Source: a virus
Virus record (IMG/VR): IMGVR_UViG_3300020470_000016
Location: 1 to 50,592 of that record
Length of the DNA stretch: 50,592 nt
Direction: 5' to 3' (one strand)
Below are positions 4,699 to 43,814 of this stretch, piece after piece; the first letter of the stretch is position 1; every line of letters starts with the position of its first letter. A model generated the notes under the pieces. That model saw nothing but the letters and a program-made list of their open reading frames with translations. It made no database searches and had not been told where the DNA came from. The position numbers and the translations under genes were made by a program.

Positions 4699-5157
4699 AT
4701 GACAAAGCAGGTTCAATTTAGGAAGGGTACTACGTCGGAGCATTTTAACTTCACTGGTGCGCTTGCTGAGATTACTGTTGATACTGATAAGAAAACAGCT
4801 GTTGTTCACGATGGTGTCACCGCTGGTGGTTTCGAGTTATCCAAATCAAGATGGACATTCGTAAACCAAGCTTCAGCACTTTCAACAAACCAAAAATATG
4901 CAGTAGATTCCCAGAACACGCCTGGGGGATTTACCCTTACATTGCCTACACCTAGAGGTGTTGGTGACTGGGTATGGTTAGAGGATTTTACAAACTTTTG
5001 GAGTCAACATCCAATAACTCTCACGTCTACTTTGCAGTTTGAAAACGGTCATTTGGTTACTGAAACATCTCCATTGATTTTAGATGTTTCGGGTGCTTCC
5101 GTGAGTTTGATTTATAATGGCACACTCTGGAAGATCTTCAACAATAGGGGAAGTTAA
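4699..5157 (+). CDS. Small tail-fibre protein with Mtd-N-like N-terminus
   Basis: This 152-aa protein has an N-terminal segment (QFRKGTT followed by EITVDTDKKTAVVHDG, residues 5-45). It resembles the N-terminal domain common to phage receptor-binding proteins of the major-tropism-determinant type. The C-terminal half has the pattern YAVDS..GG.TLTLP...GD, then a hydrophobic ending with YNGTLWKIF. The same pattern ends the 1368-aa fibre two genes downstream. It is probably a short fibre or receptor-binding component at the virion surface. It follows a late promoter and is separated by 2 bases from the next gene. Family assignment is by visible motif only. Confidence 0.8.
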   Translation: MTKQVQFRKGTTSEHFNFTGALAEITVDTDKKTAVVHDGVTAGGFELSKSRWTFVNQASALSTNQKYAVDSQNTPGGFTLTLPTPRGVGDWVWLEDFTNFWSQHPITLTSTLQFENGHLVTETSPLILDVSGASVSLIYNGTLWKIFNNRGS

Positions 5158-5583: not shown

Positions 5584-8500
5584 ATGGCTGAGTTTAGACT
5601 TGGAAGAGTAAAATTCAACTGGACGGGCGAATGGCAACCATCCAAATCCTACTTGATTGACGACCTCATCAAGTTCGGTGGAAATAGCTATGTCGCTGTC
5701 ACGAATCATACCTCTGTAGCAACTACCGCAGACTTTTACACAACGGACCTTGCAAAATGGAACGTTCATGTAGAAGGTATCGCCAATAAGGGCGAATGGG
5801 TAACGAACACTTATTACAGAGTGAATGATATTGTCAAGTTCGGCAATGTCCAGTATAGAGTTACAACTGCTCACACTTCCGCAGGTACATTTATTGATCT
5901 AAGTAAATGTGCAGAGTACGTCGCAGGATTTAAAGCTGAGGGCGAGTGGAGTATATCCACCCAGTACCAAGCTGGTGACGTTGTTAACTACAATGGATCT
6001 TCTTACGTCGCTCTAACGACTTCTCTCGCTGGTAATATACCGCCCAACAACGTTGCAATCGGAACAGATATTGCAGGCAAACAATGGCAAGTTCTTGCTG
6101 ATGGTCTTGCTGGTGCTGCTGTCACCTACGTTGACGGAACGTATTACAGAGGTCAATTAGCACAATATGGTGGTAACATTTACCGTCATAAACTAGGTAT
6201 TACAACAAACGTTGCTCCTCTCGCTATCGGCGATACCAATAATCCTGGCGTTGGTATTGGTGCATCTGTTTGGGATCTCCTAGTACAAGGATTTAAATTC
6301 ACTGGTGGTTACGTAACTAGTTTCGATTACCATCCAGGCCACGTTGCAAGATGGGGATCTGATTCCTATGTTGCTATCGGTAACTCATTCAAAGGTATTC
6401 AGCCAAATACTGGTATAGGTACTCAGTGGGAAGTTCTCGCTTCTGGTGACTCCTCTGCTGCCTTAACAACGAAGGGTGATATTCTAACCTTCAATAGTGG
6501 TAACGTAAGAATCGGTATCGGTTCTACAGGTTATGCTCTTGCGGTTCAAGGAGATGGACTGCCTGGCTATGAGGTTGTGGGTGCTCAAACACGAGTCTAT
6601 TATGTTGACTCTGAATCTGGACATGACCAAAACAACGGTCTTGCACCTAACCTAGCGTTTAAGACAATTAAAAAGGCTTGCGACGCTGCTCGTCCTACTA
6701 CACCTGTAACTGGATGTCAATATACAGCTTCGACTGGTTTGGCAACTATTACGGCTCCTGGCCACGGACTACAAAACACTGGTACGTTCGTTCAGTTAGC
6801 AGGACTTAACTTTGAGTGTACATCTGGTGGTCGTATTTACGGCGTACTGGGATTCAACTATACTCAGACAACTGGTATCGCAACAGTAACCGCTATTAAC
6901 ATCGGTGCTGCTCCAGAAACAAGTATTGGTGCTACCGTTCGACTAAGAGATATCGCAGTTCAATATACAACAGGAGGTCAGTTCGACCACCAGTATGTAA
7001 GTTGTGTTACTGATGGTATTTCAGTCGTTGGTGGTGGTACAACAACTGCTACAAGTGCAACATATAATCAGGCAACTGGTGATTTCGTAGTTACAATTCC
7101 TAACCACGTCCTTACAACAAGTGATCAGGTTGGATTTAACACTAACGCATTCACAATGAAGTGTGCTAGAGACAACTATGCAACTAACCATAGTTATCCT
7201 CGTGTAACTGACCCTGCACACAACACAAACCTGAATATTACAGCAACAACTGGTGATACAATCACAGTTAACGTTGGTGCTTCACCTGCAAACACAACAT
7301 TCAACGCTCAGTTCGCTAACGACTTCGGTGAGTCTAACTTCAATGTTACCGCCGTTCCAAGTAACAACTCTGTTGCAGTTGATGTTGGTATTAAGACTTA
7401 CGGTATTACTTACACCTCTGGTGGTGTGATTATGGCTGGTATTACCACCACAATCTTCCCAAGTATTGCTTCTAAGTCCTTCTTCGAAGTTCTTTCAGTT
7501 CCTTCAACAAGTACATTCACATGTAACGTTGGTGTTTCTACAATGAACCACACATACGTTGACAGTGGTACTTTAACTGACTTGACTCCTTGTGTATTGA
7601 GACTATCTGCTTCGCAGTTCTATGAGCAACTGCCAATTACAGTTCCTCCTTACACCTCTATTGTTGGACACTCTCTAAGAGGTACTCAGGTTCTACCTGC
7701 TGCAGGTACATCTGACGACAACACAACTCCAAACAACAGAGCAACGATGTTCAGGTTGTCTGACTCTACAACGATTCAGGCGATGGCCTTCAAGGGTATG
7801 GAAGGATTCAAGTATGATGGTAATGCTCCATTCGTACTAGACAACACAAATATCAGAACTGGTATTGGTACGACTGCCGCTGGTGTATTCATGGCACTCA
7901 ACCCCAATTCACCAATTAATGATAAGTCACCTTACGTTAAGGATTGTACTGCTTTCTCTGACAACGCTACCGAGAACGGTCGTTGGGGAGGCGGCGGCGT
8001 CGGTGTCCTAATTGACGGTGGTGTTCACGATGAAGGTGCTCGTTCGATGGTGTTCGATGCCTTTACCCACGTAACATCTGATGGTGCAGGATATGTTCTA
8101 GATAAGAACGCAATCGCTGAGATTGTTTCCTGTTTCACATACTACGCCAAGTGGGGTTACTACTCAGGTGGTGGATCAAGAATCCGTGCTGTTGGTGGTA
8201 ACAACTCTTACGGTGAGTACGGTGTTATCTCTTCTGGATTCTCTACAGTTGAATCTATTAAGACTGCAAGATTATTTGGAGACATGATGACCATTCAGGC
8301 TGCTACCATCGCAGGTACAGTTGCTGTTGGTCAAACCATGAACGGTGAAACATCTACCTCTAAGGCATGGATCGTTAACGACCAAAGATCTGCTGATAAG
8401 TTATACTTCAAGTACTTCCCAGGCTACGGTGCAACTGCATCCGCAGCAACAGGTAACGTTGCGATTGGTACTTCTCCATTCGTTGATGGTGAAGTTATTT

Positions 8501-9690
8501 ACACCTATAACGATGCTTCTGGTGCTGGTTACGCTGGTTCATTCAGTGTTGGTGCTGCAGCAAGTTCTGTTAGTGGACAGAAAGGTACAATTGTTGAAGT
8601 TGACAACACTTCTACAACATTCTTGATTGGTGATGCAATCGGATTCTCAACCACATTCGGTGATGACGAGTTGTATTACATCATCAACACAGTTACAAAC
8701 GTTTCGACTGCTGTAACTTACACAGATAACGCTGGATTGGGTGTTACATTCAACAACCGTGCTACTCTGACAATTTCGCCAGAGAAAGCAAGGGCAACAC
8801 CTGATACAAGAAACACAACGGGCGCTGGTTCGACAATAAATGCAAGAACAAGATTCTCGCAGGTACGTCTAACAGGTCACGACTTCTTGAGTGTTGGTTG
8901 CGGTAACAAGACCCAAACTAACTATCCAGATGTTGACGAAACCAATATCATCCAAGGTAACGAAACAAATACTCTTGGGCCTGGTAAGGTGTTCTTCGTA
9001 TCAACCGACCAAGGTGGTAACTTCCGAGTTGGTGAATTCTTCTCGGTTGACCAGTTAACTGGACGTGCAACCTTGGATGCTTCCGCTTTCAACCTGTCTG
9101 GTTTGACAGAATTGAGACTGGGTGCTATCGGTGGTCAGATTGGTGAGTCTATTAACGAGTTCTCCTCCGATGAATTCCTCGCAGGTAACTCTAACAGCGC
9201 TTGCCCAACTGAGTACGCAGTTAAAGGTTTCCTAACCCGTGGTAAGATGGGTGTCGGTGCGATGGTTCCTCCAGTTGGTACAACTGGTCAGAGACCTTCA
9301 GGCTCAGATCCTTCCTTCGTTGTTGGTGCTATGAGATATAACACCACAATCGGTTCTCTTGAGTACTACGATGGAGTAGGTTGGACTCAGCCAGGTAAGT
9401 TAACTTACAACCAGACAACAGCTAACACAAACGGTGAAGTCAACAACGTATACTTCATTGATACTACTGGCGGTCAGGTAACAATTACTCTACCCGCTTC
9501 ACCAAGTATCGGTGATACCATTTACTTCTACGACGTTGCTAAGACGTTCGATAGTAACCAACTCAACGTTGCTAGAAATGGTAAGGTCATACAGGGTGAC
9601 TCTTCGGACTTAACAGTTAGTGTAGAGGGTGCCGCCTTCACGCTCTGCTTCTCTGGAGACACATATGGTTGGAGAATCTTCTCCATCTAA
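5584..9690 (+). CDS. Tail fibre with carbohydrate-binding repeats and beta-helix-like segment
   Basis: The product is a 1368-aa fibre protein. The first 270 residues contain about five repeats of a W..Y..GD.V.Y.G..Y.A pattern (near residues 15, 65, 120, 182 and 240), typical of CBM5/12-like chitin- and polysaccharide-binding modules. Around residue 340 there is a VDSESGHDQNNG..P..AFKTIKKA segment, the entry motif of right-handed beta-helix or pectate-lyase-like phage proteins. Long Thr/Gly/Val beta-rich stretches follow. The last 100 residues end in a compact domain shared with the 152-aa protein upstream. An AGGAGA site lies 7 bases before the ATG. Likely function is host-surface binding. 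The pectate-lyase-like fold does not prove enzymatic activity. Confidence 0.85.
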   Translation: MAEFRLGRVKFNWTGEWQPSKSYLIDDLIKFGGNSYVAVTNHTSVATTADFYTTDLAKWNVHVEGIANKGEWVTNTYYRVNDIVKFGNVQYRVTTAHTSAGTFIDLSKCAEYVAGFKAEGEWSISTQYQAGDVVNYNGSSYVALTTSLAGNIPPNNVAIGTDIAGKQWQVLADGLAGAAVTYVDGTYYRGQLAQYGGNIYRHKLGITTNVAPLAIGDTNNPGVGIGASVWDLLVQGFKFTGGYVTSFDYHPGHVARWGSDSYVAIGNSFKGIQPNTGIGTQWEVLASGDSSAALTTKGDILTFNSGNVRIGIGSTGYALAVQGDGLPGYEVVGAQTRVYYVDSESGHDQNNGLAPNLAFKTIKKACDAARPTTPVTGCQYTASTGLATITAPGHGLQNTGTFVQLAGLNFECTSGGRIYGVLGFNYTQTTGIATVTAINIGAAPETSIGATVRLRDIAVQYTTGGQFDHQYVSCVTDGISVVGGGTTTATSATYNQATGDFVVTIPNHVLTTSDQVGFNTNAFTMKCARDNYATNHSYPRVTDPAHNTNLNITATTGDTITVNVGASPANTTFNAQFANDFGESNFNVTAVPSNNSVAVDVGIKTYGITYTSGGVIMAGITTTIFPSIASKSFFEVLSVPSTSTFTCNVGVSTMNHTYVDSGTLTDLTPCVLRLSASQFYEQLPITVPPYTSIVGHSLRGTQVLPAAGTSDDNTTPNNRATMFRLSDSTTIQAMAFKGMEGFKYDGNAPFVLDNTNIRTGIGTTAAGVFMALNPNSPINDKSPYVKDCTAFSDNATENGRWGGGGVGVLIDGGVHDEGARSMVFDAFTHVTSDGAGYVLDKNAIAEIVSCFTYYAKWGYYSGGGSRIRAVGGNNSYGEYGVISSGFSTVESIKTARLFGDMMTIQAATIAGTVAVGQTMNGETSTSKAWIVNDQRSADKLYFKYFPGYGATASAATGNVAIGTSPFVDGEVIYTYNDASGAGYAGSFSVGAAASSVSGQKGTIVEVDNTSTTFLIGDAIGFSTTFGDDELYYIINTVTNVSTAVTYTDNAGLGVTFNNRATLTISPEKARATPDTRNTTGAGSTINARTRFSQVRLTGHDFLSVGCGNKTQTNYPDVDETNIIQGNETNTLGPGKVFFVSTDQGGNFRVGEFFSVDQLTGRATLDASAFNLSGLTELRLGAIGGQIGESINEFSSDEFLAGNSNSACPTEYAVKGFLTRGKMGVGAMVPPVGTTGQRPSGSDPSFVVGAMRYNTTIGSLEYYDGVGWTQPGKLTYNQTTANTNGEVNNVYFIDTTGGQVTITLPASPSIGDTIYFYDVAKTFDSNQLNVARNGKVIQGDSSDLTVSVEGAAFTLCFSGDTYGWRIFSI

Positions 9691-9700
9691 TAGAGATGAT

Positions 9701-9725
9701 AGGGGAGGAAATCCTCCCCTTTTTC
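9701..9725 (+). terminator. Rho-independent terminator
   Basis: A strong inverted repeat AGGGGAGGA / TCCTCCCCT with a two-base loop is followed by a run of five to six T. It lies directly after the 1368-aa fibre gene. Confidence 0.85.
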
Positions 9726-9765: not shown

Positions 9766-10548
9766 ATGGCAACTTACGGAAGTTATAAAAAAATAGTCGC
9801 ATCGCAGATTCTCGATAACTCAATTCCTGATAGTGCGTTTGCAGATGGTGCTGGTCCAAAATACAACGTAAAATGGATCCGAGGTCCTATTGGTGGAACC
9901 ACTAGTGGTTGCTGCTGTTATTGGACTGTACCAACAGGTGTGAAGAGAGTTACATTTGATGTTTGGGGTGCAGGTGGAAACGGACATGGATTCTGTTCAT
10001 GGGACCGTTGCCATCACTACTTCGGTGCTGGTGGTGGATATTATTCTACTAAAACAATCGCTGTTCAAGAAGGTTGGAACTATACAATATGTGCAGGTGG
10101 TACTTATCCTTGTTGCTCTTATGAGTGTACAGGATGTAGAGGATGTGCATCTTATGTAAATGGATGTAACCTTTCAAACTTCTGTGCATGGGGTGGAAAT
10201 AGAGGATGTGCAAACACCTCTTGGGCTGAGATGTGTTTCTCCGATTGGAACTGTTGCGTAAGTCCTACTTTTAATGGTTCTGATTTCGCAATGGGTAACA
10301 TGAGACCTGCAGGTACAGGTCCATATAACTGTCACTGCTATCGTCATACATGGTGTGCTGGTAACGCTCCATTCCTCGCTGCAGGAACCCACGGTGGTCA
10401 CCTAGCAGAGTGTTGGAAACGTTGTGCATGTTGGACTGTTCCATATGCATCTGGCGGTCCTGGCGGTATGACTACATATTGTGGTAACTGGGACAACGGT
10501 ACTGGTGGTATCGGTGGTTCTGGTGTTATTAAGATTACATACGTTTAA
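9766..10548 (+). CDS. Gly/Cys-rich adhesin-like protein, copy 1
   Basis: This is the first of three tandem paralogues (260 aa). It contains about 24 cysteines, including GCCC near residue 48, ECTGCRGC near 118 and CHCY near 197. Glycine-rich turns follow a W-TVP-GV-K-x-x-F-x-x-W-GAGGNG motif, which resembles the glycine-rich domain of phage tip adhesins. The chain closes with YCGNWDNG and a strand ending VIKITYV. HHY, CHC and other His/Cys clusters could bind metal or form disulfides. There is no signal peptide. The position directly after the long fibre gene fits a fibre-tip adhesin. Function is inferred from context and composition. Confidence 0.85.
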   Translation: MATYGSYKKIVASQILDNSIPDSAFADGAGPKYNVKWIRGPIGGTTSGCCCYWTVPTGVKRVTFDVWGAGGNGHGFCSWDRCHHYFGAGGGYYSTKTIAVQEGWNYTICAGGTYPCCSYECTGCRGCASYVNGCNLSNFCAWGGNRGCANTSWAEMCFSDWNCCVSPTFNGSDFAMGNMRPAGTGPYNCHCYRHTWCAGNAPFLAAGTHGGHLAECWKRCACWTVPYASGGPGGMTTYCGNWDNGTGGIGGSGVIKITYV

Positions 10549-10565
10549 AGGGGACACTTAAAGAA

Positions 10566-11363
10566 ATGGCAAGTTATTCTTCTTATAAATCAGTTACTAC
10601 TGAACAAATAGCAGATGGTCTAGTAACCGAACAGATGGTGGTGCCTGGTGCAAGGAAGAACTATGGTATTAAATGGTTCCACGGTTCACCAAACCCAACT
10701 GTAAGCGGATGTTGTTGCTTATGGACTGTTCCTTCTGGAGTATCTAAACTTCATATTGAAGCTTGGGGTTCTGGAGGTAATGGACACGGAAAATGTTCTT
10801 GGGATAGATGTCATCACTACAAAGGTGCTGGTGGTGGACAGTATAACTCCAAGATGATTACAACTAGTGGAGGTTGTCAGTATACAATTTGTGCAGGTGG
10901 GGTATATCCCTGCTGTAGTTACGAATGTACAGGTTGTGAAGGATGTGCTTCATACGTAAATGGTTACAACCTAAGTAACTTCTGTGCTATCGGAGGTTCT
11001 AGAGGTTGTGCAAACACCAGTTGGGCAGAGACTTGCTACTCAACATATGATTGTTGCTTAGCGCCTGGAAACAATGGTGGAGACTTTGGTTGGCAGGGTC
11101 ACGCTGGAAGATTTGGTTCTGTACAGTGGTGGTTCGGTGTTGGTTTTTGTCATTGTCATCTACAGAATACGAAACCATCTACAGCTCCTATAGTAGGAAC
11201 TACTGTTGAGGTTTCAATTAACTTCTGCTGGACTCGACATGGTTGCTGGACTGTTCCGTATACGAACGGTGCTCAAGGTGCTCAAACTAGTTACTGTGGT
11301 AACTGGGACAATGGTTATGGTAATACAGGGGGACCTGGCTTAGTGAAAATTACATACTTCTAA
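10566..11363 (+). CDS. Gly/Cys-rich adhesin-like protein, copy 2
   Basis: The second tandem paralogue has 265 aa and about 22 cysteines. It keeps the GCCCLWTVPSGV, CSWDRCHHY, PCCSYECTGC, NLSNFC and YCGNWDNG blocks of copy 1. The N-terminal 35 residues and a central loop (about residues 180-220, with a WW..GVGFCHCH patch) differ from both neighbours. Conserved framework plus divergent loop is the pattern expected of receptor-binding proteins. It starts 17 bases after copy 1 and has no promoter motif of its own, so it is probably cotranscribed. Confidence 0.85.
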   Translation: MASYSSYKSVTTEQIADGLVTEQMVVPGARKNYGIKWFHGSPNPTVSGCCCLWTVPSGVSKLHIEAWGSGGNGHGKCSWDRCHHYKGAGGGQYNSKMITTSGGCQYTICAGGVYPCCSYECTGCEGCASYVNGYNLSNFCAIGGSRGCANTSWAETCYSTYDCCLAPGNNGGDFGWQGHAGRFGSVQWWFGVGFCHCHLQNTKPSTAPIVGTTVEVSINFCWTRHGCWTVPYTNGAQGAQTSYCGNWDNGYGNTGGPGLVKITYF

Positions 11364-11369
11364 TAAATA
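11362..11369 (+). promoter_or_regulatory. Late-promoter-like motif AATAAATA
   Basis: A NATAAATA motif overlaps the stop codon of copy 2 and lies 21 bases before the ATG of copy 3. This is a plausible distance for a T4-type late promoter. Confidence 0.6.
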
Positions 11370-11390
11370 ACACCAAGGAATTAGATCCAA

Positions 11391-12173
11391 ATGGCACAGT
11401 ATACCGATTATAAAAAGATTGATGGGGCTTCATTACCTTCAGGGGTAATTACAGATGCTAAAATCGATCCGTCAGCATTTAACTCTTGGAACATTAAGTG
11501 GATTTATGGTTCACCTAACCCAGTTTCGAGTGGATGCTGCTGTTTGTGGACTGTACCAAGTGGTGTCAGAAAGATAACTTTCGAGATCTGGGGTTCTGGC
11601 GGTAATGGACATGGTAAGTGTTCATGGGACCGTTGCCATCATTACAGAGGTGCTGGTGGTGGATATTATAATATGAAGACTATTGATACCGTTCCTGGCT
11701 GTCAGTATACAGTTTGTGCTGCTGGTGTATATCCATGTTGCTCTTATGAGTGTGTAGGATGTAATGGTTGTTCCTCATACGTTAATGGTCATAACTTAAG
11801 TAACTTCTGTGCTATTGGTGGTTACAGAGGAGAGGCTAATACCTCTTGGAACGAGGCATGTAACTCAACATTTACATGTTGTTTAGCGCCTGGAAATAAT
11901 GGTGGAGACTTCGGTATGGGTAACCATGCTGGAAACTTTGGTTGGCACGCTTCTGAGTGTCACTGCCATTGTGTTGGAACTCATCCAAGTTCTGCTCCGT
12001 TTATTGGAACTGATGCTCAACAAAACCTAACTACATGTTGGACAAGACATGGTTGTTGGACTGTTCCTTATGGTAACGGTGCTATGGGCGGTATGACTAC
12101 TTACTGTGGTAACTGGGATAACGGTTATGGAAATACTGGTGGTCCTGGCCTAGTTAAGATAACATACGTCTAA
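11391..12173 (+). CDS. Gly/Cys-rich adhesin-like protein, copy 3
   Basis: The third tandem paralogue has 260 aa and about 22 cysteines. It shares the GCCCLWTVPSGV, CSWDRCHHY, PCCSYEC and YCGNWDNGYGNTGGPGLVKITY blocks with copy 2, to which it looks closest at the C-terminus. One cysteine conserved in copies 1 and 2 is Glu here (RGEAN instead of RGCAN). A CHCHC-containing stretch occupies the variable central region. It has its own late-promoter-like motif and is followed by a terminator. The role is inferred as a tail-fibre adhesin variant. Confidence 0.85.
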   Translation: MAQYTDYKKIDGASLPSGVITDAKIDPSAFNSWNIKWIYGSPNPVSSGCCCLWTVPSGVRKITFEIWGSGGNGHGKCSWDRCHHYRGAGGGYYNMKTIDTVPGCQYTVCAAGVYPCCSYECVGCNGCSSYVNGHNLSNFCAIGGYRGEANTSWNEACNSTFTCCLAPGNNGGDFGMGNHAGNFGWHASECHCHCVGTHPSSAPFIGTDAQQNLTTCWTRHGCWTVPYGNGAMGGMTTYCGNWDNGYGNTGGPGLVKITYV

Positions 12174-12198
12174 CAGAATTTTAAAAATTTATTCAAAG

Positions 12199-12220
12199 GA
12201 GGGTCACTACCCTCTTTTTT
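12199..12220 (+). terminator. Rho-independent terminator
   Basis: GAGGGT and ACCCTC pair around a CACT loop and are followed by TTTTTT, 25 bases after copy 3 of the Gly/Cys-rich genes. Confidence 0.8.
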
Positions 12221-12234
12221 AATGAGAAAAAATA

Positions 12235-12242
12235 TATAAATA
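12235..12242 (+). promoter_or_regulatory. Late promoter TATAAATA
   Basis: A perfect T4 late promoter core lies between the terminator and the ATG at 12286, about 43 bases upstream of that gene. Confidence 0.75.
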
Positions 12243-12285: not shown

Positions 12286-13158
12286 ATGGCAAACACAATC
12301 ATCAAACACGAGTTTGATCTACCATTACCAGACACGTATTTGGTTGATCATGCGATGACCCAAGGTAAATCACGTAAGTATACATATCATGGACCTGACA
12401 AGATCTATCTTCAAATAGATGCATCAGGTAAGGAAAGATATGGCCCTCTTACAGAAGACGATAAGGCAGACGGACGACCAATGCCAAAGGATGTAAAAGA
12501 ATTCTTTGAAGTTGATTGCACCCAGTATCCTTTAATCTGTCAGTTGAGAGCTCCAATCGTTAATGAATCTCAAGAAGTATCTGGACCAGTAAAGGCAGAT
12601 AATAAGACTGCAAATACTCAAACAGGAGATGCTGCAGGTTCTATTGAAATTCATCCACAATCACCAGATCTTACTGGTTATACAAGATATAGATATAGTT
12701 TACCAATACTTCCTGACTTCATATATGATAAAGAAGGGGTTACTGTAACTAATAATGTTCCAAGTGCAAGAGTTAAAACAGTTAATGAGTGTATATTGGG
12801 TGCTAATGTTAGTCCTGATGTAACTGATCTCAGAATGGCAAGAGATAAGATGCTTGTAAGTTCTGATTCATCAATTACTTCTGATATGCCTACTACCTTA
12901 TCAGATAAGGTTAAAACATATCGTCAGAAGTTGAGAGATTGGCCAACATTGATTGAGACTAATGGTATCCCAGCTGCTGTTGCTCTTAAGATGGAGCCTA
13001 TACACCCTGATGTCGTATATGACGTAAATGGTGTTCCATCTATGACCAATGAGACTGCTGCTTATATTGCTAGAAGGGAACAGAAGGAGGCTGATCAAGT
13101 CGCCGCTGGTCTTGCTCAGATGGAAGCTGCTAAGCCTATTGAAGATCAATCTATCTGA
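12286..13158 (+). CDS. Probable tail-fibre assembly chaperone-like protein
   Basis: The product is 290 aa, with no signal peptide or membrane segment. Near residues 207-225 it reads KVKTYRQKLRDWPTLIETNGIP cut into its parts: YRQKLRDWP followed by a short Pro-ended linker. This is the signature of phage tail or fibre assembly chaperones (Tfa/XkdW-like C-terminal motif YRq.LRD.P). The Gln/Glu/Ala-rich C-terminus looks helical. The gene follows the fibre and adhesin genes under its own late promoter, where fibre chaperones are usually found. The assignment rests on one short motif plus position, so it is provisional. Confidence 0.65.
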   Translation: MANTIIKHEFDLPLPDTYLVDHAMTQGKSRKYTYHGPDKIYLQIDASGKERYGPLTEDDKADGRPMPKDVKEFFEVDCTQYPLICQLRAPIVNESQEVSGPVKADNKTANTQTGDAAGSIEIHPQSPDLTGYTRYRYSLPILPDFIYDKEGVTVTNNVPSARVKTVNECILGANVSPDVTDLRMARDKMLVSSDSSITSDMPTTLSDKVKTYRQKLRDWPTLIETNGIPAAVALKMEPIHPDVVYDVNGVPSMTNETAAYIARREQKEADQVAAGLAQMEAAKPIEDQSI

Positions 13159-16363: not shown

Positions 16364-17863
16364 ATGATTAAAAAAGTTGAGAAGATTGCAATAATTGGTG
16401 GAGGTACTTCTGCTTGGTTAACTGCTGCCTATCTTAAAAAGAACATAATAGACTATAAAGAAATTGTTGTTATTGATAAAGAAAATTCAAATCCTGTTGG
16501 AGTTGGAGAAGCAACTATTTTAAACTTCAAGACCTTTATGGATGATTGTGGTTTTAATATTACAGATTGGTTTTCAAAAATTGGTTCTGTATTTAAAGGT
16601 GGTATATTATTTCCTAACTGGGGTACTGGAGAAGTTTGGCATCCATTTGCTTTTCCAGATTATAGTTATAATGGCAATCCTACTACTTTAGTTGGCTGTT
16701 GGACTAAGTTTCAAGAAAAAACATTTAAAGAAAATGGACTCATACATTATGATGTTTGTAAACATCAAATGAGAGTAGATCCAGATAACTTATCCATATA
16801 TGCTTTTCATATAGATGCATTAAATTTGGTTGAATTTATAAAGGATCAAATTATTGGTAATGATGTGCATTTTATACAATCTGAGGTTGTTGGGATTCAG
16901 TATGATACTGATGAGTATGTTTCCTTTTTAGACTTAAAGGATGGTTCAAAAATAGAAGCGGATCTATATGTAGATTGTACGGGATTTAATGGATTAATAT
17001 ATGATAGCGATAAGGTTGATTTGAGTGATAGGTTGTATTGTGATACTGCTGTTGCTACTCAAGTTCCATATGAAAATCAAAATGAAGAATTAAATCCATA
17101 TGTTAATTGTCCAGCAGTAGAGAGTGGATGGATATGGGAGATACCCTTACAAACAAGAATTGGATCTGGACTTGTATTCAACAGGAATATAACTTCTCCA
17201 GATGATGCTAAAGTAGAATTATCTAATCATTGGAATGGAAGGGTAAGTCCTAGTGATATGAAAGTTCTCGATTGGACTCCATATTATAATAAAAATTTTT
17301 GGAAGAAGAATGTAGTAAATATTGGATTATCTGCAGGGTTTATTGAACCTCTGGAGAGTACAGGCATTGCATTAATATGTGCAGGTATTTCTGGTATGTT
17401 TGATAGAATACAAACGATGGAATATACGGATAATGATATAAACTTATACAATGCAGAGATGACTTGTAAGTTTGAGGATTGTATTGATTTTGTTAATATG
17501 CACTACTCATATTCTGAGGCTAAAGGTAAGTTTTGGGATTGGATTAGAGAGGTTTATAAACCATCAGAAAAATTACTTTATTTTAAAGAACAACTTGAAA
17601 ATAATCCTAAGTTTCAACTGAGTGGGTTCACAGGTAAAGATATTTTTTCTGGTAATAATTGGATAGCATGGATGATCCAATTAGGTAATAAAGTAATTAA
17701 AAGAGATGATAATATTCCTGATGAAGTTTCTTATTTGATGATGTCAGATTTTGTTAAAAATGAAATGAATAAGTACGATTATTTGCCTAACGTTAATGTG
17801 TATTGTAAGTACTTCAATACTTTAAGTCATTTAAATGAACAGTCTATAAATCCATATCGATGA
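16364..17863 (+). CDS. Flavin-dependent tryptophan halogenase family protein
   Basis: The product is 499 aa and carries the family's diagnostic residues. The FAD-binding GGGTSAW is at residues 12-18, VGVGEAT at 45-51, and FKGG with the presumed catalytic Lys78 (PrnA Lys79) follows. The halogenase WxWxIP motif is present as WIWEIP at 256-261, and EPLESTG at 329-335 holds the Glu matching PrnA Glu346. All key residues are intact, so an active FADH2-dependent halogenase is plausible. The substrate may be free or protein-bound tryptophan, or another aromatic. Halogenase-like genes are known in cyanophages without assigned function. The next gene overlaps by ATGA, so coupled expression with the DUF6445 pair is likely. 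Flavin reductase would come from the host. Confidence 0.9.
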   Translation: MIKKVEKIAIIGGGTSAWLTAAYLKKNIIDYKEIVVIDKENSNPVGVGEATILNFKTFMDDCGFNITDWFSKIGSVFKGGILFPNWGTGEVWHPFAFPDYSYNGNPTTLVGCWTKFQEKTFKENGLIHYDVCKHQMRVDPDNLSIYAFHIDALNLVEFIKDQIIGNDVHFIQSEVVGIQYDTDEYVSFLDLKDGSKIEADLYVDCTGFNGLIYDSDKVDLSDRLYCDTAVATQVPYENQNEELNPYVNCPAVESGWIWEIPLQTRIGSGLVFNRNITSPDDAKVELSNHWNGRVSPSDMKVLDWTPYYNKNFWKKNVVNIGLSAGFIEPLESTGIALICAGISGMFDRIQTMEYTDNDINLYNAEMTCKFEDCIDFVNMHYSYSEAKGKFWDWIREVYKPSEKLLYFKEQLENNPKFQLSGFTGKDIFSGNNWIAWMIQLGNKVIKRDDNIPDEVSYLMMSDFVKNEMNKYDYLPNVNVYCKYFNTLSHLNEQSINPYR

Positions 17864-18597
17864 AAAGACCTAATTTTATAGATGAAGAAGAAGTCTTTGC
17901 TGTTAATCCTGATGTGGAAGCAAATGTCCATGTTATAGGACCAGAAGGGATTAAAGTTGTAGTATTGGATAATTTTTATAAGAATCCTGATGCGGTAAGA
18001 GATGTTGCTTTAACTATTCCTCCTACGGAAAATGTTAGGATTATGGCTGGAACGCCTGGAACGAGAGTGTTTGGTCATTATAATTTTGAATGTTTATATC
18101 CAATATTAAGTCATGTATTCAGGAATGTTTATACAGAAGAAACAAAGGATGTTCCTGATGATGTAATGAGAGAGGCTATTGTTAATTGTCCTTTCTGCGT
18201 TAACATTAATCAATCTGTTAATTTACCTCCCGTTACTCCACATATTGACGATAGACAGTTTATGATGTATGCTGCAGGGATTTATTTAAATCTCCCAGAG
18301 GAATGTACGGGTGGTACATCTTTCTATTCATTGAATGGTAAACAATCAATAAGCAATGAAGATATAGGTGATTGGTTAAAAAGTAAAGGTAAAGAGAAGT
18401 TCTACGATCATTATATAACTGACAGTGTTGAGGAATGGGAACTTTTAAATATTGCTACTATGAAGTATAATAGATTAATAATGTATCCAGGCAATGTGGC
18501 TCATACTGCTTATATGAAACCAGATGATTTTACTGGTGATGTGTATAGGTTAATTCAGATGATGTTTATTCCTCTTAATCCAGAAGCAGATGCATAA
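17860..18597 (+). CDS. DUF6445-like protein with 2-oxoglutarate oxygenase-type residues, copy 1
   Basis: The product is 245 aa and begins FIDEEEVFAVNP, followed by VVLDNFYKNPDAVRD near residue 35, the opening typical of DUF6445-like proteins. Further on, the residues fit a jelly-roll Fe(II)/2-oxoglutarate oxygenase: His128 and Asp130 in PHIDD, GGTSFY at 151-156, His215 in GNVAHTAY, and Arg230 fourteen or so residues later. The start overlaps the halogenase stop by 4 bases and the end overlaps copy 2 by 8 bases. DUF6445 genes also occur near tryptophan halogenases in some proteobacteria, suggesting joint action on one substrate. Enzymatic activity is an inference. Confidence 0.75.
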   Translation: MKRPNFIDEEEVFAVNPDVEANVHVIGPEGIKVVVLDNFYKNPDAVRDVALTIPPTENVRIMAGTPGTRVFGHYNFECLYPILSHVFRNVYTEETKDVPDDVMREAIVNCPFCVNINQSVNLPPVTPHIDDRQFMMYAAGIYLNLPEECTGGTSFYSLNGKQSISNEDIGDWLKSKGKEKFYDHYITDSVEEWELLNIATMKYNRLIMYPGNVAHTAYMKPDDFTGDVYRLIQMMFIPLNPEADA

Positions 18598-19384
18598 AAC
18601 TTTTATTGACGAACAAGAAGTATTTGCTTTAAATGATAATTTGGAAGCAAAGGTTTTTACAGTAGGTCCCGAAAAGGCTAGGATAACCTATGTTGATAAC
18701 TTCTATAAAAATCCAGATGCAGTAAGAGATCTTGCTATATCTATTCCACCAACTCGTAATCCAATGATTATGGCTGGAGCGCCTGGATCAAGGGTAGATG
18801 TTTTTTATAATTTACAACATATGACACCCTTCTTTGGATATATCTTTAGGAGTGTTTATGGAGATATTAATGAGGAAGTCACTGATGCCAGAATACAAGA
18901 TGCAATAAAAGGAATAACTTTCTGTGTTAATGTTACCCAATCCGAAGACTTAAAACCTATCGTTCCCCATGTAGATGATACTTCTACAGATCTATTTGCT
19001 GCAACAGTTTATTTGAATAAACCAGAAGAATGTATGGGTGGTACTTCATTTTATACATTAGATGGTAAACAGACGGGAAATGCAGATGATATTGATGCTT
19101 GGTTAAAGTCGAAGGGTAAATATCCGTACTACGATCATTACATTACTGATAGTGAAGAAGAGTGGGATATGATACATCTGGCAGAAATGAAGTATAATAG
19201 GTTTGTAATATATCCTGCAAACATCTTCCATACTGGTTATATCAAACCAGGCATGTTTACTGGAGATGTACATAGGCTTGTCCAAATGTTCTTTGTTTTC
19301 CTTGGTGGAAAGGGAACTTTTATGCCTATAAATCACAATGAATACAAGAAATGGTTAGACGAAAATGAAAACGGTATTTGTTAA
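18590..19384 (+). CDS. DUF6445-like protein with 2-oxoglutarate oxygenase-type residues, copy 2
   Basis: This 264-aa protein is a tandem paralogue of the preceding gene: FIDEQEVFALN, VDNFYKNPDAVRD, GGTSFYTLDGKQ and DHYITDS are shared. The presumed iron and 2-oxoglutarate residues are kept (His127, Asp129, His214, Arg229). It carries about 25 extra C-terminal residues ending in NENGIC. It overlaps copy 1 by 8 bases and the nucleotidyltransferase by 20 bases, so it is part of the same translationally coupled run. Whether the two copies form a heterodimer or act on different positions cannot be told. Confidence 0.75.
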   Translation: MHKTFIDEQEVFALNDNLEAKVFTVGPEKARITYVDNFYKNPDAVRDLAISIPPTRNPMIMAGAPGSRVDVFYNLQHMTPFFGYIFRSVYGDINEEVTDARIQDAIKGITFCVNVTQSEDLKPIVPHVDDTSTDLFAATVYLNKPEECMGGTSFYTLDGKQTGNADDIDAWLKSKGKYPYYDHYITDSEEEWDMIHLAEMKYNRFVIYPANIFHTGYIKPGMFTGDVHRLVQMFFVFLGGKGTFMPINHNEYKKWLDENENGIC

Positions 19385-21326: not shown

Positions 21327-21663
21327 GTTTGTATCTAAAGGTTGGGGATTCGAAAAGTGGATTGCCAATAATAAACAGTATTGTGGTAAGTTACTCTTTA
21401 TCGCAAAAGATAAGAGATGTTCATGGCATTATCATAAATTAAAGAGAGAAACATTTTATATTCAGTCTGGAAGAATTAAACTTTGGTATGGTAAGACAGA
21501 CGATAGAGATTCAGCAAACACTACAATACTAGAACCTGGCGACAATTTTCATGTCCCAAGAGGACTAAGACATCAGATGTTAGCTATAGAGGATACAGAA
21601 CTATTTGAATTCTCTACACAACATTTTGATGAAGATAGTAATAGAATTATTCCTGGCGACTAA
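21307..21663 (+). CDS. Cupin protein, sugar-isomerase-like
   Basis: This 118-aa protein is a single-domain cupin. The metal-binding HYH pair (His41, His43), Glu48 in KRETFY, PGDNFHVPRG at 77-86 and His89 match the two cupin motifs. The start GWGFEKW resembles the opening of phosphomannose-isomerase-like cupins found in nucleotide-sugar gene clusters. It could be a sugar isomerase, epimerase or dehydratase helper, or simply a binding protein. It ends on TAATG, sharing one base with the next start. Confidence 0.75.
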   Translation: MTLNTVKFVSKGWGFEKWIANNKQYCGKLLFIAKDKRCSWHYHKLKRETFYIQSGRIKLWYGKTDDRDSANTTILEPGDNFHVPRGLRHQMLAIEDTELFEFSTQHFDEDSNRIIPGD

Positions 21664-22286
21664 TGGTTGGACAACTCCTTAAAGATCATATAGGTACTTA
21701 CAAAGTACTTACTGATGAAGAATCTGATTCCGTTATAAAATGGTTTCATGATAATGAAGATCTTCATATGGAAGGAATGGTTTATGCTTCAACAGAAGAT
21801 GGAAAGGTATCTGAAGTACAAACTACTAGGGATAGAAAGAAAACCACACAGGCATATCCAGATCCAGATGATCCAATATCACATCTATTAAGTCATGCTA
21901 TAATGAATGCCTATCAGGCATATAAAGATGATCCAGAACATTTATATCCTCTTGGGCAACCTTTAGTATTACAAGATTTATCTGTTAGACGTTATCATAA
22001 AGGTGATGGATATTTTAAAAAACATGCTGATCAATCACATGGTCCAACTTCTACTCGTCAATATGGAGTTTTAATCTATTTGAATGATGTTGAGGAAGGT
22101 GGAGAAACAAATTTTGATGAACTATTTTGCAAAATAAAACCAGAAAAGGGTAAGTTACTTATATTTCCTTGTAATTTTCTTTATAACCATTGTGGAGAAG
22201 TTCCTATCTCTGGAGATAAGTATGCTGTAACTTGTTTCATCTGTTATCCATTGTGGCTTCCTGAAGATAAACCAAAAAGTTTATGA
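21663..22286 (+). CDS. 2-oxoglutarate/Fe(II) oxygenase, prolyl 4-hydroxylase type
   Basis: The product is 207 aa. The catalytic set of prolyl 4-hydroxylase-like oxygenases is present: His121 and Asp123 in KKHADQS, GGETNF at 146-151, His176 in LYNHCGE, and Lys186 for 2-oxoglutarate in PISGDKYAVTCF. Such genes are common in T4-like cyanophages. Targets may be proteins or small molecules, and none can be read from the sequence. It is the last + strand gene of the island and its last 6 bases overlap, tail to tail, with the minus-strand epimerase gene. Confidence 0.85.
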   Translation: MVGQLLKDHIGTYKVLTDEESDSVIKWFHDNEDLHMEGMVYASTEDGKVSEVQTTRDRKKTTQAYPDPDDPISHLLSHAIMNAYQAYKDDPEHLYPLGQPLVLQDLSVRRYHKGDGYFKKHADQSHGPTSTRQYGVLIYLNDVEEGGETNFDELFCKIKPEKGKLLIFPCNFLYNHCGEVPISGDKYAVTCFICYPLWLPEDKPKSL

Positions 22287-23151: not shown

Positions 23152-23973
23152 ATGGCGAAACCTTCTAGCAGAGAAGAATTGAAAGAATACTGCCTGAGAA
23201 AGTTAGGTAAGCCTGTTCTGGAAATTAACGTAGACGACGATCAGATCGAAGATCTGATTGACGAAGGAATTCAGTACTTTCACGAAAGACATTCTGAAGG
23301 TATAGAAAGAGTATACCTTAAGCATAAGATCTCTGAAGTAGATCTTGAACTTGCTAAAACTGGTGTTGCTTCAACTAGTACTGCAACAAGTACTTATGGG
23401 GGACCCAATTCAGTGGCATGGGAAGAAGGTGCTGGTTATCTACCACTACCAGATCATGTCCTAAGTGTAAATAAAGTATTTAAAGTTGACTCCACATCTA
23501 TATCTAGTGGACTTTTCAACATTAAATATCAGTTGTTCCTGAATGATTTATATTACTATGGTGCAATTGATCTATTAAATTATGCTATGGTTAAAACTTA
23601 TCTGGAGGACTTAGATTTTTTAATAAATCCAGAAGTTCAAATAAGGTTTAACGTTAAGAATAGAAGAATGTATTTGGATTGGGATTGGCAGGAAGTTAGT
23701 TCTAATCACTATGTTTTGATTGATTGTTACAGGGTTTTAGATCCAGAGAGTAACACTGCTGTCTATAATGATTTTTGGTTAAAGAGATATGTCACTGCTC
23801 TTATTAAGAAACAGTGGGGACAAAACCTAACGAAGTTCCAAGGGGTAAAACTTCCAGGCGGTTTAGAATTGAATGGTAGACAGACTTTTGACGATGCCGT
23901 AATGGAAATTGAGGCATTAGAAGAGAAGATGATGGAAGAGTATGCAATGCCCCCATTAGACATGATAGGATAA
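23152..23973 (+). CDS. 13: Neck protein gp13 (head completion)
   Basis: This 273-aa protein is the first gene of the neck-terminase block 13-14-15-16-17. It starts MAKPSSREELKEYCLRKLG and continues ...NVDDDQIEDLIDEGIQYF, the hallmark of T4-like gp13 in cyanophages. T4 gp13 is 309 aa. It acts with gp14 to seal the DNA-filled head and accept the tail. The downstream gene starts at its stop codon, consistent with tight coupling. Confidence 0.85.
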   Translation: MAKPSSREELKEYCLRKLGKPVLEINVDDDQIEDLIDEGIQYFHERHSEGIERVYLKHKISEVDLELAKTGVASTSTATSTYGGPNSVAWEEGAGYLPLPDHVLSVNKVFKVDSTSISSGLFNIKYQLFLNDLYYYGAIDLLNYAMVKTYLEDLDFLINPEVQIRFNVKNRRMYLDWDWQEVSSNHYVLIDCYRVLDPESNTAVYNDFWLKRYVTALIKKQWGQNLTKFQGVKLPGGLELNGRQTFDDAVMEIEALEEKMMEEYAMPPLDMIG

Positions 23974-26249
23974 TGCCAGTAACTCCGTTTTTTCTACATG
24001 GTTCGCCAAGCGAACAAAGGTTGGTACAGGATCTTGTCAATGAACATTTGAAAATGTTCGGACAGGATGTTCTTTATTTGCCAAGAAAAATCATTGATGA
24101 AAATACGGTAATAAAAGAGATTGCTGCATCTAGGTTTGATGATAGTTTTAGAATAGAGGCATACCTATCTAACTTTGATGGATTTGGTACACCATCTGAT
24201 ATTCTAACTAAGTTTGGAGTAAGATCACAAGACGAAGTTACTCTTGTTATTTCCAAAGAAAGATATGATGATTTTATTAGTCCTTTCTTAGAATTATATT
24301 CTGCAGATGCTACTGTAAAAGTAACTAATAGACCACAAGAAGGAGATTTAATCTATCTTCCACTTGATAATACATTATTCGAGATCAAATACGTTGAAGG
24401 TAAAGTACCTTTCTATCAGTTAAATGATTTGTTTATGTATGAACTCAGGTGTGAAATCTTTGAGGCTTCAACTGCTGAGGTTATTGATATCTCTGATGTA
24501 GAAACTGGTATGACTGGAGAGGAGATTACAGAACCTCTTACTGGTGGTGCAGTCGCTATGATACTAACTATGGTATCAGCTGCTGCTACAAGTGCTACTG
24601 CAACAGTTTCTTATGCTTCTACTACTCCAGGCGTAATGGGTCTTCATTATGTCGATTTGATTAATGATGGTAATTATGAAGCTACACCTTCTGTCACTAT
24701 AAGTAAACCAGTTAAAGGTAATGCTGCTAGTGCTGATGCAACTGTTGTTGCAGGAGAAGTTACTGCATTAACACTTACCAATGCAGGTACAAATTTCTTA
24801 TCTACTCCTAGTGTAACATTTACTCCACCAAATAGGGTGGTTGCAAGTCAAATTAAGTTTGGAAATAACTCCTTATACCACGATACAACAACTAAGACAC
24901 AAGAAGCACTTTGGAACTTTGCCTCTAATATTGATGCAAGAAATGGTAGAGTTGTAATAAGTTTCTGGTTCTATCCAACAGATTTAAATCCTAGTGCAAA
25001 TGGTGGTGCAATAATTTGGTCTGATCATATTAAGATCTATCATTTACCAGATGGTAAGATACGTTTCGCTTCTGCTCAAACAACTCAAGGTTCTAGTGAA
25101 GCACTCAATCTTAATGCATGGAACTTTATTAGAATTGTTCAAGTAGGAACTGATGCAAGAATTTCTGTTAATGGTGTAAGTGGTGGTCCATATTCAAACG
25201 TTGATCCTATCCCGTTTGCTTCTGGAGATACAGTTTATATTGGTGCTGATGCAGCAGGTGCAGGACGTTACCCAACTGTAACTTCTAGTTATTTGGGATA
25301 TGTTGATCACTTTACAGTGAACTTTACTACAGACACTCAGTTTAGAACTACTGTAGAGACTCAAATTCCAGGCACAATAACAGAACAAGAAGTAGATTTA
25401 CAGACTAGTGAGACTGCTGGATTCATTCAGAACTGTGATAATGAATATCCAACTGTTACTGCTACTATTGATACTAATAGACAAGTAACTGGATTCACTA
25501 TTGTTGATGGTGGACAAGGATATGATACTGTTCCAAACGTAATAATATCTGAACCACAACAAGGAACACAGGCAACTGCGGTTGCTATTATGACCAGTAG
25601 AGGTACTATTCCTGGCCAGGGAATTGATAGGATTGTGATGATTGATCCTGGCGTTGGTTATGATGCTCCTCCGACTGTTACTATTACTGGTGGTGGCGGT
25701 GGTGGTGCTATCGCAACTGCTGTTATTGCAGAGAATGGTTTTGGACCTGTTGCCATATCCAGTGGAGGTGTGGGATACTCAACGGTTCCGAACATTTACG
25801 TAGACAGAATATTCATCCCAACTTCTTCTGGTACTACAACCGCTATTAATAATGTACAAGCAGAGGCAGTACTAGATACTACTGGAACTGTAGTTCAGGT
25901 AAGATTAGCCAATGCTGGTGCAGCATATACATTTACACCTACAGTTACTTTCGATCCAGTAGAAGATCCATCCTTCGGAGATTATTCAGTCAACGAAGTT
26001 ATTCAAGGACTTGAGAGTGGCACTAAGGGATATGTAAGATCTTGGAATTTACCAAATAGAAGACTAGAACTATATTCAGTCGATGGTAAATTTAGACAAG
26101 GAGAGTCTGTTGTTGGTATTGGTGCAAGTTATACTATCTCAAATATCTCTTATAATGAGGAGTCTGGATTCCCAGATAACGAAACAATTGAGTTAGAAGC
26201 AGATGGTATCTTAGATTTTTCTGAGAGAAACCCTTTTGGTGAGTTCTAA
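23973..26249 (+). CDS. 14: Neck protein gp14 with inserted LamG-like domain
   Basis: The product is 758 aa, about three times T4 gp14 (256 aa). Residues 1-170 are gp14-like: LYLPRKIIDE, GVRSQDEVTLVIS, EGDLIYLPLDNTLFEIKYVE and a FYQLND segment. The last residues FSERNPFGEF resemble a gp14 end. Between them lies a large insert of Gly/Thr/Val-rich repeats with GYDTVPNVIISEPQQG-like units. A LamG/concanavalin-like stretch around residues 290-440 has FWFYPTDLNP, WNFIRIVQVG and YIGADAAG. The insert could decorate the neck and bind polysaccharide. It forms the head-tail joint with gp13. Confidence 0.85.
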   Translation: MPVTPFFLHGSPSEQRLVQDLVNEHLKMFGQDVLYLPRKIIDENTVIKEIAASRFDDSFRIEAYLSNFDGFGTPSDILTKFGVRSQDEVTLVISKERYDDFISPFLELYSADATVKVTNRPQEGDLIYLPLDNTLFEIKYVEGKVPFYQLNDLFMYELRCEIFEASTAEVIDISDVETGMTGEEITEPLTGGAVAMILTMVSAAATSATATVSYASTTPGVMGLHYVDLINDGNYEATPSVTISKPVKGNAASADATVVAGEVTALTLTNAGTNFLSTPSVTFTPPNRVVASQIKFGNNSLYHDTTTKTQEALWNFASNIDARNGRVVISFWFYPTDLNPSANGGAIIWSDHIKIYHLPDGKIRFASAQTTQGSSEALNLNAWNFIRIVQVGTDARISVNGVSGGPYSNVDPIPFASGDTVYIGADAAGAGRYPTVTSSYLGYVDHFTVNFTTDTQFRTTVETQIPGTITEQEVDLQTSETAGFIQNCDNEYPTVTATIDTNRQVTGFTIVDGGQGYDTVPNVIISEPQQGTQATAVAIMTSRGTIPGQGIDRIVMIDPGVGYDAPPTVTITGGGGGGAIATAVIAENGFGPVAISSGGVGYSTVPNIYVDRIFIPTSSGTTTAINNVQAEAVLDTTGTVVQVRLANAGAAYTFTPTVTFDPVEDPSFGDYSVNEVIQGLESGTKGYVRSWNLPNRRLELYSVDGKFRQGESVVGIGASYTISNISYNEESGFPDNETIELEADGILDFSERNPFGEF

Positions 26250-41964: not shown

Positions 41965-42504
41965 ATGGCAATCAAAACGAGAAAACGATCAGAACATTAT
42001 GTAAATAACAAACAGTTTTTGGCTGCTGTTATAGAATTGAGAGATTTCTTTAACCAAGGTAAAGATCTCGGTCATGAAACTCATAGGGTTTCAATTAAGT
42101 ATTTCAGAGATCATAAGGATCGTGACACTGCTCAAAAATTTAGAAGGTGTTATGAGTATCTTGGTAATTGTTTTTCCAAGATTGGTAATCATTTGGCATA
42201 CAAACCAAATTTTGTAAACTATATGTATCGTGAGGATATGGTCTCCGATGGCATAGAGAATTGCATACAATATATTTGCAACTTTAATCCAGAAAAGTCT
42301 TCAAATCCCTTTGCATATTTTACTCAGATTATACATTATGCTTTTCTTAGAAGGATACAGAAAGAAAAGAAACAGATGGAGATTAGAACCAAGATCATTG
42401 AGAGATCTGGTTATGATGAAGTATTCAGTGTAGATGATGATTTTGGCAATTCTGCCGACTATAATTCTATTAAAGACGCCGTACAATCTAAATTATATCA
42501 ATGA
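41965..42504 (+). CDS. 55: Late-transcription sigma factor gp55
   Basis: The product is 179 aa (T4 gp55 is 185). It has NNKQFLAAVIELRDFF near the N-terminus. The central EDMVSDGIENCIQYICNFNPEKSSNPFAYFTQIIHYAFLRRIQKEKKQ is typical of the conserved core (sigma region 2) of gp55-type factors, quoted here as EDMVSDGIENCIQ and NPFAYFTQIIHYAFLRRI. gp55 directs RNA polymerase to TATAAATA-type late promoters, which are abundant in this window. A sigma70 promoter precedes it. Confidence 0.9.
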   Translation: MAIKTRKRSEHYVNNKQFLAAVIELRDFFNQGKDLGHETHRVSIKYFRDHKDRDTAQKFRRCYEYLGNCFSKIGNHLAYKPNFVNYMYREDMVSDGIENCIQYICNFNPEKSSNPFAYFTQIIHYAFLRRIQKEKKQMEIRTKIIERSGYDEVFSVDDDFGNSADYNSIKDAVQSKLYQ

Positions 42505-43814
42505 AATTTGCAATTATAGGTAAGGGAACAAGTGCTCTTGTCTCTTCAATGATCGTTCTCCGTAGAGGACACCAAGTTGAACACTTCTATGATCCAGATA
42601 CACCATTCCTTAGAGTAGGTGAATCAACTACACCACATGTTTCTTGCTTGATGCGAGATGTACTGGGTATGTGTATTGGTACATTCGTTGATGATGGCAT
42701 TGTATCATATAAAAACGGTGTTCATTTTGTTGATTGGGGTGTAGGAGGAGAATTTACTCACCCATTTAACAGTAACCATAATGCCTTTCACCTTGATAAT
42801 AAGAGGTGGAATGATTATGTAATAGGTATTCTAGAATCAAAGAGGGGTGTTAAGTTTCACCCAGAAAGGTATGAGGGATATGAAGTAACAGATCATGATA
42901 CCATCATGATTAATGGTAAAGAGTTTGATTTTATTATTAATTGTAGTGGTTGGCAGGATGATGATTCCTATGATGAACCACTTATTGAGACTGTAAACTC
43001 TGCTTTACTTCATCATATACCAGAGATGAAGGAGTATCATCATACTATTCACCTTGCGACAAAACATGGATGGCAATTCCAACTTCCATTCCCAGAACTG
43101 AATGGTGGTGAGAGTCATTGTGGATATCTATATAATAATAAGTTAACCTCTGATGAAGAAGCTGTTGCTGATCTGAAGAGAATGTATGGTGAAGATCATC
43201 AATTCAAGATGATCAAATGGAAGCCTAGGTTTGCAAGGCAAATGATTAAGGATAGGTTTGAAGCCTTCCAAGGTAACAGACTATTCTTCCTAGAACCCTT
43301 ACAGGCACTATCACTTGATTACTATAAACTTCTTTGTGAAGACATTACTGACTTCGCTGAAAGAAGAGATTATGCAACTTTCTGTCAGGTAAACCAAAAG
43401 TACCGCAGCGAGATGATTGACTATCAGTATGCTCTTGCGTTACACTATCAATTCGGTTCTGTCTATGGCGGAAACGGTCAAGGTGATAGTAAGTTCTGGA
43501 ATTGGGTTACTCCTCGTGCCAGACATAATCTAAAGTTCCATCCAGTTACCTGTGATGATAAACTGTTCTTTGATTTCATGAACGTAGATACTCAGACTTC
43601 TGATGATCTATCTACCCCATATCAATGGAAAGAACAAATTCGTCCAGAAGACTATACGGCAAAGGGAAGACCCAATGTTGGTCATACTTTAACCACATGT
43701 CTTCAGATTGCTGGATTCAATTACTTCGATACTAAGACCTTATACTGTGGATTCAACCAGATCCGATTCCTTGAATTTGAAGATAAGTACAAAGGTTTAC
43801 CTAGAAACGAATGA
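42501..43814 (+). CDS. Divergent flavin-dependent halogenase-like oxidoreductase
   Basis: The product is 437 aa. FAIIGKGTSAL near residue 3, RVGESTTPH at 38-46 and YKNGVHFVDWG with Lys71 match the halogenase fold and the catalytic-type Lys. The usual WxWxIP motif is replaced by WQFQLP (191-196) and the EPLES Glu is Gln268 in EPLQALSLD. It is therefore either inactive as a halogenase or has a different chemistry, such as a monooxygenase. It overlaps gene 55 by 4 bases and gp47 by 4 bases, so it is embedded in the replication-recombination block. Confidence 0.8.
   Translation: MKFAIIGKGTSALVSSMIVLRRGHQVEHFYDPDTPFLRVGESTTPHVSCLMRDVLGMCIGTFVDDGIVSYKNGVHFVDWGVGGEFTHPFNSNHNAFHLDNKRWNDYVIGILESKRGVKFHPERYEGYEVTDHDTIMINGKEFDFIINCSGWQDDDSYDEPLIETVNSALLHHIPEMKEYHHTIHLATKHGWQFQLPFPELNGGESHCGYLYNNKLTSDEEAVADLKRMYGEDHQFKMIKWKPRFARQMIKDRFEAFQGNRLFFLEPLQALSLDYYKLLCEDITDFAERRDYATFCQVNQKYRSEMIDYQYALALHYQFGSVYGGNGQGDSKFWNWVTPRARHNLKFHPVTCDDKLFFDFMNVDTQTSDDLSTPYQWKEQIRPEDYTAKGRPNVGHTLTTCLQIAGFNYFDTKTLYCGFNQIRFLEFEDKYKGLPRNE

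Follow-up and report, generated by a model that had tools for sequence, protein, structure and literature searches.

Three tandem cysteine-rich genes form a real, widespread and so far unannotated module, probably a fibre tip, which recurs in dozens of related phages and which would be a cysteine-rich, three-paralogue form of a known kind of adhesin, that of the Pam3 gp24 type. We describe it in a viral sequence of 50,592 nucleotides (IMG/VR record IMGVR_UViG_3300020470_000016, hereafter the window). Judged from its genes, the window virus is a T4-like myovirus of the Kyanoviridae type, a marine phage that infects cyanobacteria; further on, the window encodes the T4-type neck, gp15, terminase, sheath, tube, portal, scaffold and major head protein. 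Among annotated phages, those with the most closely related trios belong to Kyanoviridae (e.g., S-SSM7). The locus is organized as follows:

5584–9690, + strand: long tail fibre, 1368 aa (phrog_9851 tail fibre, E = 1.3e-299), with three CBM_5_12-like stretches
9701–9720, + strand: terminator-like hairpin with a T run, in the gap between the fibre gene and the trio (−15.7 kcal/mol)
9766–10548, + strand: subunit A (position 1), ORF of 260 aa with 24 cysteines (phrog_4205, E = 1.2e-41)
10566–11363, + strand: subunit B (position 2), ORF of 265 aa with 22 cysteines (phrog_4205, E = 6e-50)
11391–12173, + strand: subunit C (position 3), ORF of 260 aa with 22 cysteines (phrog_4205, E = 2.4e-53)
about 12195–12220, + strand: terminator-like hairpin with a T run, at the end of the trio (−12.3 kcal/mol, z −3.6)
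12235–12242, + strand: TATAAATA, T4-late-promoter-like box preceding the chaperone-like gene
12286–13158, + strand: tail-fibre-assembly chaperone-like gene (PF16778 Phage_tail_APC, E = 2.6e-6, above gathering; phrog_4912)

The first-pass annotation had recognized three tandem cysteine-rich genes sharing about 20 cysteines, and both points were borne out, since the ORFs lie on the + strand at exactly the coordinates that it gave and 20 cysteine columns are common to A, B and C of the window. Cysteine makes up 9.2% of A, 8.3% of B and 8.5% of C, glycine accounting for 16–17% in the trio, while the other proteins of the window contain 124 cysteines in 14,812 residues (0.84%), none exceeding 2.4%; the enrichment of the trio relative to them is highly significant (binomial p 1e-15 to 1e-17). 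All three proteins match the PHROG 4205 profile over their full length, and the PF21722 Gly_rich_2 score is 26.6 for C and 24.0 for A, with a gathering cut-off of 24.3 and no score listed for B. In both families, the annotation is restricted to unknown function or a glycine-rich domain. At the comparable locus, Syn9 carries glycine-rich but cysteine-poor proteins (gp36 with 8 cysteines and gp38 with 2); hence, the cysteine enrichment is a feature of the lineage and is not required by the fold.

The fold itself was approached by structure prediction, using an AF2 alignment for C of 112 sequences from which rows from annotated phages were left out. The resulting model (pLDDT 83.3, pTM 0.79) has a Pam3 gp24-like fold, TNF-like and glycine-rich: its residues 31–260 superpose on residues 76–275 of Pam3 gp24 (7ypx_A) with a Z score of 16.6 and an rmsd of 3.2 over 195 aligned residues, at 16% identity. 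The next matches are the Bxb1 tail tip (Z 11.5) and the TNF-like/glycine-rich region of ALK/LTK (Z 8–10), and, among viral predicted structures, the model matches its relatives in S-CAM3, P-SSM2 and Syn9. A profile search against PDB sequences gave no match. The Pam3 tip is trimeric and distal and is the proposed receptor reader; a chaperone encoded next to it assembles it (PMC9608196). The trio resembles this gp24/gp25 system (PDB 7YPX, 7YFW) in its TNF-like sandwich with a glycine-rich lattice, its putative fibre role, the chaperone-like gene behind it and the cyanobacterial host. However, Pam3 uses one gene, whose product trimerizes with its own helical shaft, whereas the window encodes three paralogues that have just a short tag and a linker in place of a shaft, contain about 8–9% cysteine and lie behind a separate 1368-aa fibre gene. 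Indeed, residues 1–30 of the C model are of low confidence, contain two 3-residue helices and lack the N-terminal alpha-helical shaft by which the Pam3 type docks to the baseplate.

From this fold, from the place of the trio between a tail-fibre gene and a tail-fibre-assembly-like gene, and from its phrog_4205/PF21722 membership, we infer, with good support, that the trio is a receptor-binding tip, as had been suggested from the sequence at first reading, and its proteins would be located in the virion. We found no virion proteome of a trio-bearing phage in the literature, the reported ones being those of S-SM1, S-PM2, Syn9 and S-CREM2, none of which has been shown to have a trio; likewise, the literature on cysteine-rich or disulfide-bearing cyanophage tips held nothing on the trio family. 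The gp38 adhesins of Salmonella phage S16 and of T-even phages (PDB 6F45) share with the trio the arrangement of a small separate glycine-rich adhesin gene after a long fibre gene, and in such adhesins an N-terminal part made of short helices docks on the fibre (PMC9608196). Nevertheless, 6F45 is not among the fold matches listed for the C model, and the trio has no Pfam gp38 match. We know of no cysteine enrichment in gp38, which is moreover encoded by a single gene.

The 1368-aa tail fibre is likely the arm bearing the tip. The end of its gene matches phrog_9648, as does an Mtd_N-domain tail protein encoded at 4699–5157 of the window, which could reflect a repeated fibre module. Of 82 triplets, 47 have a terminator-like hairpin upstream of A and 52 have one downstream of C; none has one between the trio genes (0/82), which are separated by short stretches only (medians 17 and 18 nt in these triplets). 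With hairpins on either side of A, B and C but none among them, the trio probably constitutes one discrete unit, whose borders are known as sequence signals. Past its end, TATAAATA lies beyond C in 68 of the 82 triplets (47 of the 60 distinct ones), mostly 50–79 nt away; a separate late promoter probably drives the chaperone-like gene. In 82 of 87 loci, this gene comes directly after the third copy, and it has weak matches to tail-fibre-assembly families (phrog_4912 among them). Its predicted product (pLDDT 92) is beta-rich and then helical, an order which is also that of the two domains of the Pam3 chaperone gp25 (beta-rich N-terminal, helical C-terminal); however, a fold search with this model against the PDB returned no significant match, gp25 included.

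Several other genes were observed around these loci. In Sf-FS3, a prolyl 4-hydroxylase-like 2OG-Fe(II) dioxygenase gene (L017, 9345–9977) lies directly after the chaperone-like gene, and the window encodes a 2OG-Fe(II) oxygenase at 21663–22286. It also carries two tryptophan-halogenase-like genes (16364–17863 and 42501–43814), the first of which adjoins two DUF6445 genes (17860–19384), and a 758-aa ORF (23973–26249) in which the T4 neck protein (PF11649) is fused to a laminin-G/concanavalin-like lectin domain.

A scan of IMG/VR with the family profile revealed 257 relatives, and the best 80 loci were fetched. Counted by profile, exactly three copies are present in 84 of 87 loci, a number in which deep diversity is undersampled, 80 of the loci being the best-scoring among the 257 relatives. 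The three others correspond to a contig end (L032) and to remote relatives, and complete loci of the window-type lineage show no gene loss or expansion. The order is equally constant: each of 192 unique proteins has its closest relative from the other loci at its own position (192/192), subunit A being orthologous to the position-1 genes of other loci, and this holds by segment for the central loop (192/192), residues 9–36 (190/192) and the rest (189/192). We therefore regard a fixed trio of constant order as well supported across these sequences. The trios of the Synechococcus phages S-SSM7, S-SSM6a, Sf-FS3 and, remotely, S-CAM1 and S-CAM3 agree with that of the window in their three-gene array, in gene order and in having a chaperone-like gene as neighbour, and all their proteins are annotated as hypothetical. 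The same design occurs in the remote lineages S-CAM1, S-CAM3, L011 and the phage-like contigs L096 and L097, each remote trio having its own N-terminal tag, common to its three copies. The S-CAM-type trio is only distantly related to that of the window and reaches 36 cysteines per chain (24–36 in the six proteins of S-CAM1 and S-CAM3). On the other hand, P-SSM2 and P-SSM5 have two copies and not three, with the chaperone-like gene between them. Monophyly by position was not rejected against the free tree (AU test, p = 0.16); the data are thus compatible with a single ancestral triplication followed by stable positions, and gene conversion among the three copies was dropped as an explanation.

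Two observations concern the remote loci themselves. In L096 (2941–6000) and L097 (2489–5548), a remote fibre gene is accompanied by three cysteine-rich paralogues, with the chaperone-like gene after the first copy; both contigs are binned in a Neomarinimicrobiota MAG, and they are probably phage assembled or binned with it. In S-CAM1, gene C030809_107 (L018, 6798–7697) is probably annotated with a start that lies too far downstream; its frame starts with MPNTNLRDLLG, the tag common to its two neighbours.

We favour, with moderate confidence, a model in which the trio is the distal receptor-binding tip of the tail fibre, made of three fixed partners that most likely build one hetero-oligomer with chaperone help. 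Each chain would begin with an N-terminal docking tag, MAxYxSYK, common to all three, followed by a variable linker and then by a TNF-like beta-sandwich bearing a lattice of glycine-rich loops, the part proposed to read the receptor in Pam3 gp24. A, B and C would be fixed paralogues kept as a set, not alternatives, and would be made at equal gene dose from one discrete transcription unit, the adjacent chaperone-like protein helping to assemble them into one hetero-oligomeric tip. Because the same trio recurs in constant order in dozens of related phages, the three proteins probably work together and are not spare tips. If the trimeric Pam3 tip is a guide, the most likely arrangement is a putative A:B:C heterotrimer, in which the position-specific centre would distinguish the subunits or give each a different binding face, and the cysteines would rigidify the glycine-rich loops.

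Alternatively, each gene could encode a homotrimeric adhesin of its own, all three alike in fold but each with its own receptor; one virion would carry them on different fibres, or on several fibres that offer the same docking site. We consider this tentatively, as something for which a real but lesser case exists: the Pam3 relative is a homotrimer (PMC9608196), each position has a conserved type that differs from the others and has a characteristic loop length, and the docking tag is common to all three. However, the count stays at three over wide divergence, whereas independent adhesins are usually gained and lost, and one chaperone-like gene serves all three.

Whatever the assembly, the conserved cysteines could be disulfides or metal ligands. 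Among 193 unique homologues (in reference-position numbering), cysteine occupies 14 positions without exception (49, 50, 51, 77, 82, 109, 116, 127, 140, 164, 190, 192, 216 and 239). Disulfides formed after lysis in oxic seawater, which would harden the glycine-rich loops, have in our view somewhat less than even prospects; they would account for these 14 invariant residues, would suit an exposed, extracellular working site and have a parallel in the fold relatives ALK/LTK, which are extracellular proteins. Secreted domains of this sort are known to carry disulfides. On the contrary, the total number of cysteines is odd in 89 of the 193 chains and in 38 of 66 distinct trios, and 67 of the 121 branches with a cysteine change have a single change (by parsimony, an approximate count). 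The variable cysteines, gained and lost mostly one at a time, thus cannot all be disulfide-paired. Positions 104 and 134 also speak against pairing: they are never both cysteine, Cys104 being found with Tyr, His or Phe (rarely Gln) at 134 and Trp104 with Cys134, and the ten simultaneous opposite Cys/aromatic switches between them (p = 3e-12, approximate as are all branch p-values here) mark, as far as sequences can tell, a packed contact with a lone thiol and not a bond.

The first-pass annotation preferred metal, pointing to CHC and HHY clusters. According to this view, which we find plausible but short of even, the conserved cysteines would be ligands of Zn or Fe, some of them intersubunit, giving a metal-clipped tip like the iron-binding T4 gp37 tip. 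The CHC motif (190–192) is indeed kept, with its histidine in 191 of 193 homologues, whereas HHY is not fixed (H83 in 94/193, with Q in 84; H84 in 155/193). Positions 220 (C176/H16/G1) and 243 (C121/H32/D26/N7) accept almost only ligand residues, and 15 of the 17 Cys–His exchanges on the tree, by approximate parsimony, fall on these two (p = 5e-15); such an exchange takes two nucleotide substitutions, and replacements that a single step would allow are almost never seen there. The single gains and losses of variable cysteines point in the same direction. However, Cys–His exchange is not enriched over all sites (17/248 versus 342/5795), and we therefore keep metal for the two sites only: their exchanges suggest one C-terminal metal site, for which the cluster C216, C/H220, C222, C239 and C/H/D243 would be a candidate. 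The T4 gp37 tip, linked with the "Ferrojan horse" idea (PMC11705849), has in common with the trio a fibre tip with candidate metal ligands, but it binds through HxH, and no conserved HxH exists in the trio (H191 is conserved, while residue 193 is His in only 55/193), whose candidate ligands are mainly cysteines. The preference for metal thus stands in part, at these two sites and in the single changes. The more elaborate proposal of an obligate A:B:C heterotrimer of TNF-like subunits, with a C1q-like logic, clipped by Cys/His metal sites within or between subunits and presenting three receptor-reading faces at once, appears to us rather unlikely.

The pattern of a conserved frame with a differing N-terminus and centre had been ascribed to swappable tips. 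The N-terminal 35 residues do differ from about residue 9 to 36, but residues 1–8 (MAxYxSYK) are conserved. The centre (about 178–216) is what differs most between positions, and so between A, B and C, but its length is nearly fixed per position: 11 in 62 of 63 first genes, 17 in 59 of 64 second genes (including the longer, 17-residue loop of B) and 12–13 in 57 of 65 third genes. In close pairs, dN/dS is 0.19 for residues 9–36, 0.15 for the core, 0.17 for the centre and 0.09 for the C-terminus, i.e., purifying selection throughout. Exchange of centre and N-terminus as recombining cassettes to switch host is therefore very improbable and is contradicted in the present sample: although these are the least conserved parts and nine close pairs differ in residues 9–36 (rest >85%, N-terminus <55%), a swapped centre (<55% identity) was seen in 0 of 199 same-position pairs with >85% identity outside it, the identities of centre and rest correlate at 0.77–0.83, and position and centre are inherited together. 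The centre marks subunit identity, and the swap-like pattern reflects three fixed subunit types.

In conclusion, little is known of how the tips of T4-like cyanophages recognize Synechococcus and Prochlorococcus, and the trio provides a likely tip with a given fold, which we suggest to be a three-part machine. If the heterotrimer is true, specificity for the receptor could arise from a combination of genes instead of from a single one. Moreover, the dense conserved cysteines of the trio offer a concrete starting point for testing marine phage tails for metal.
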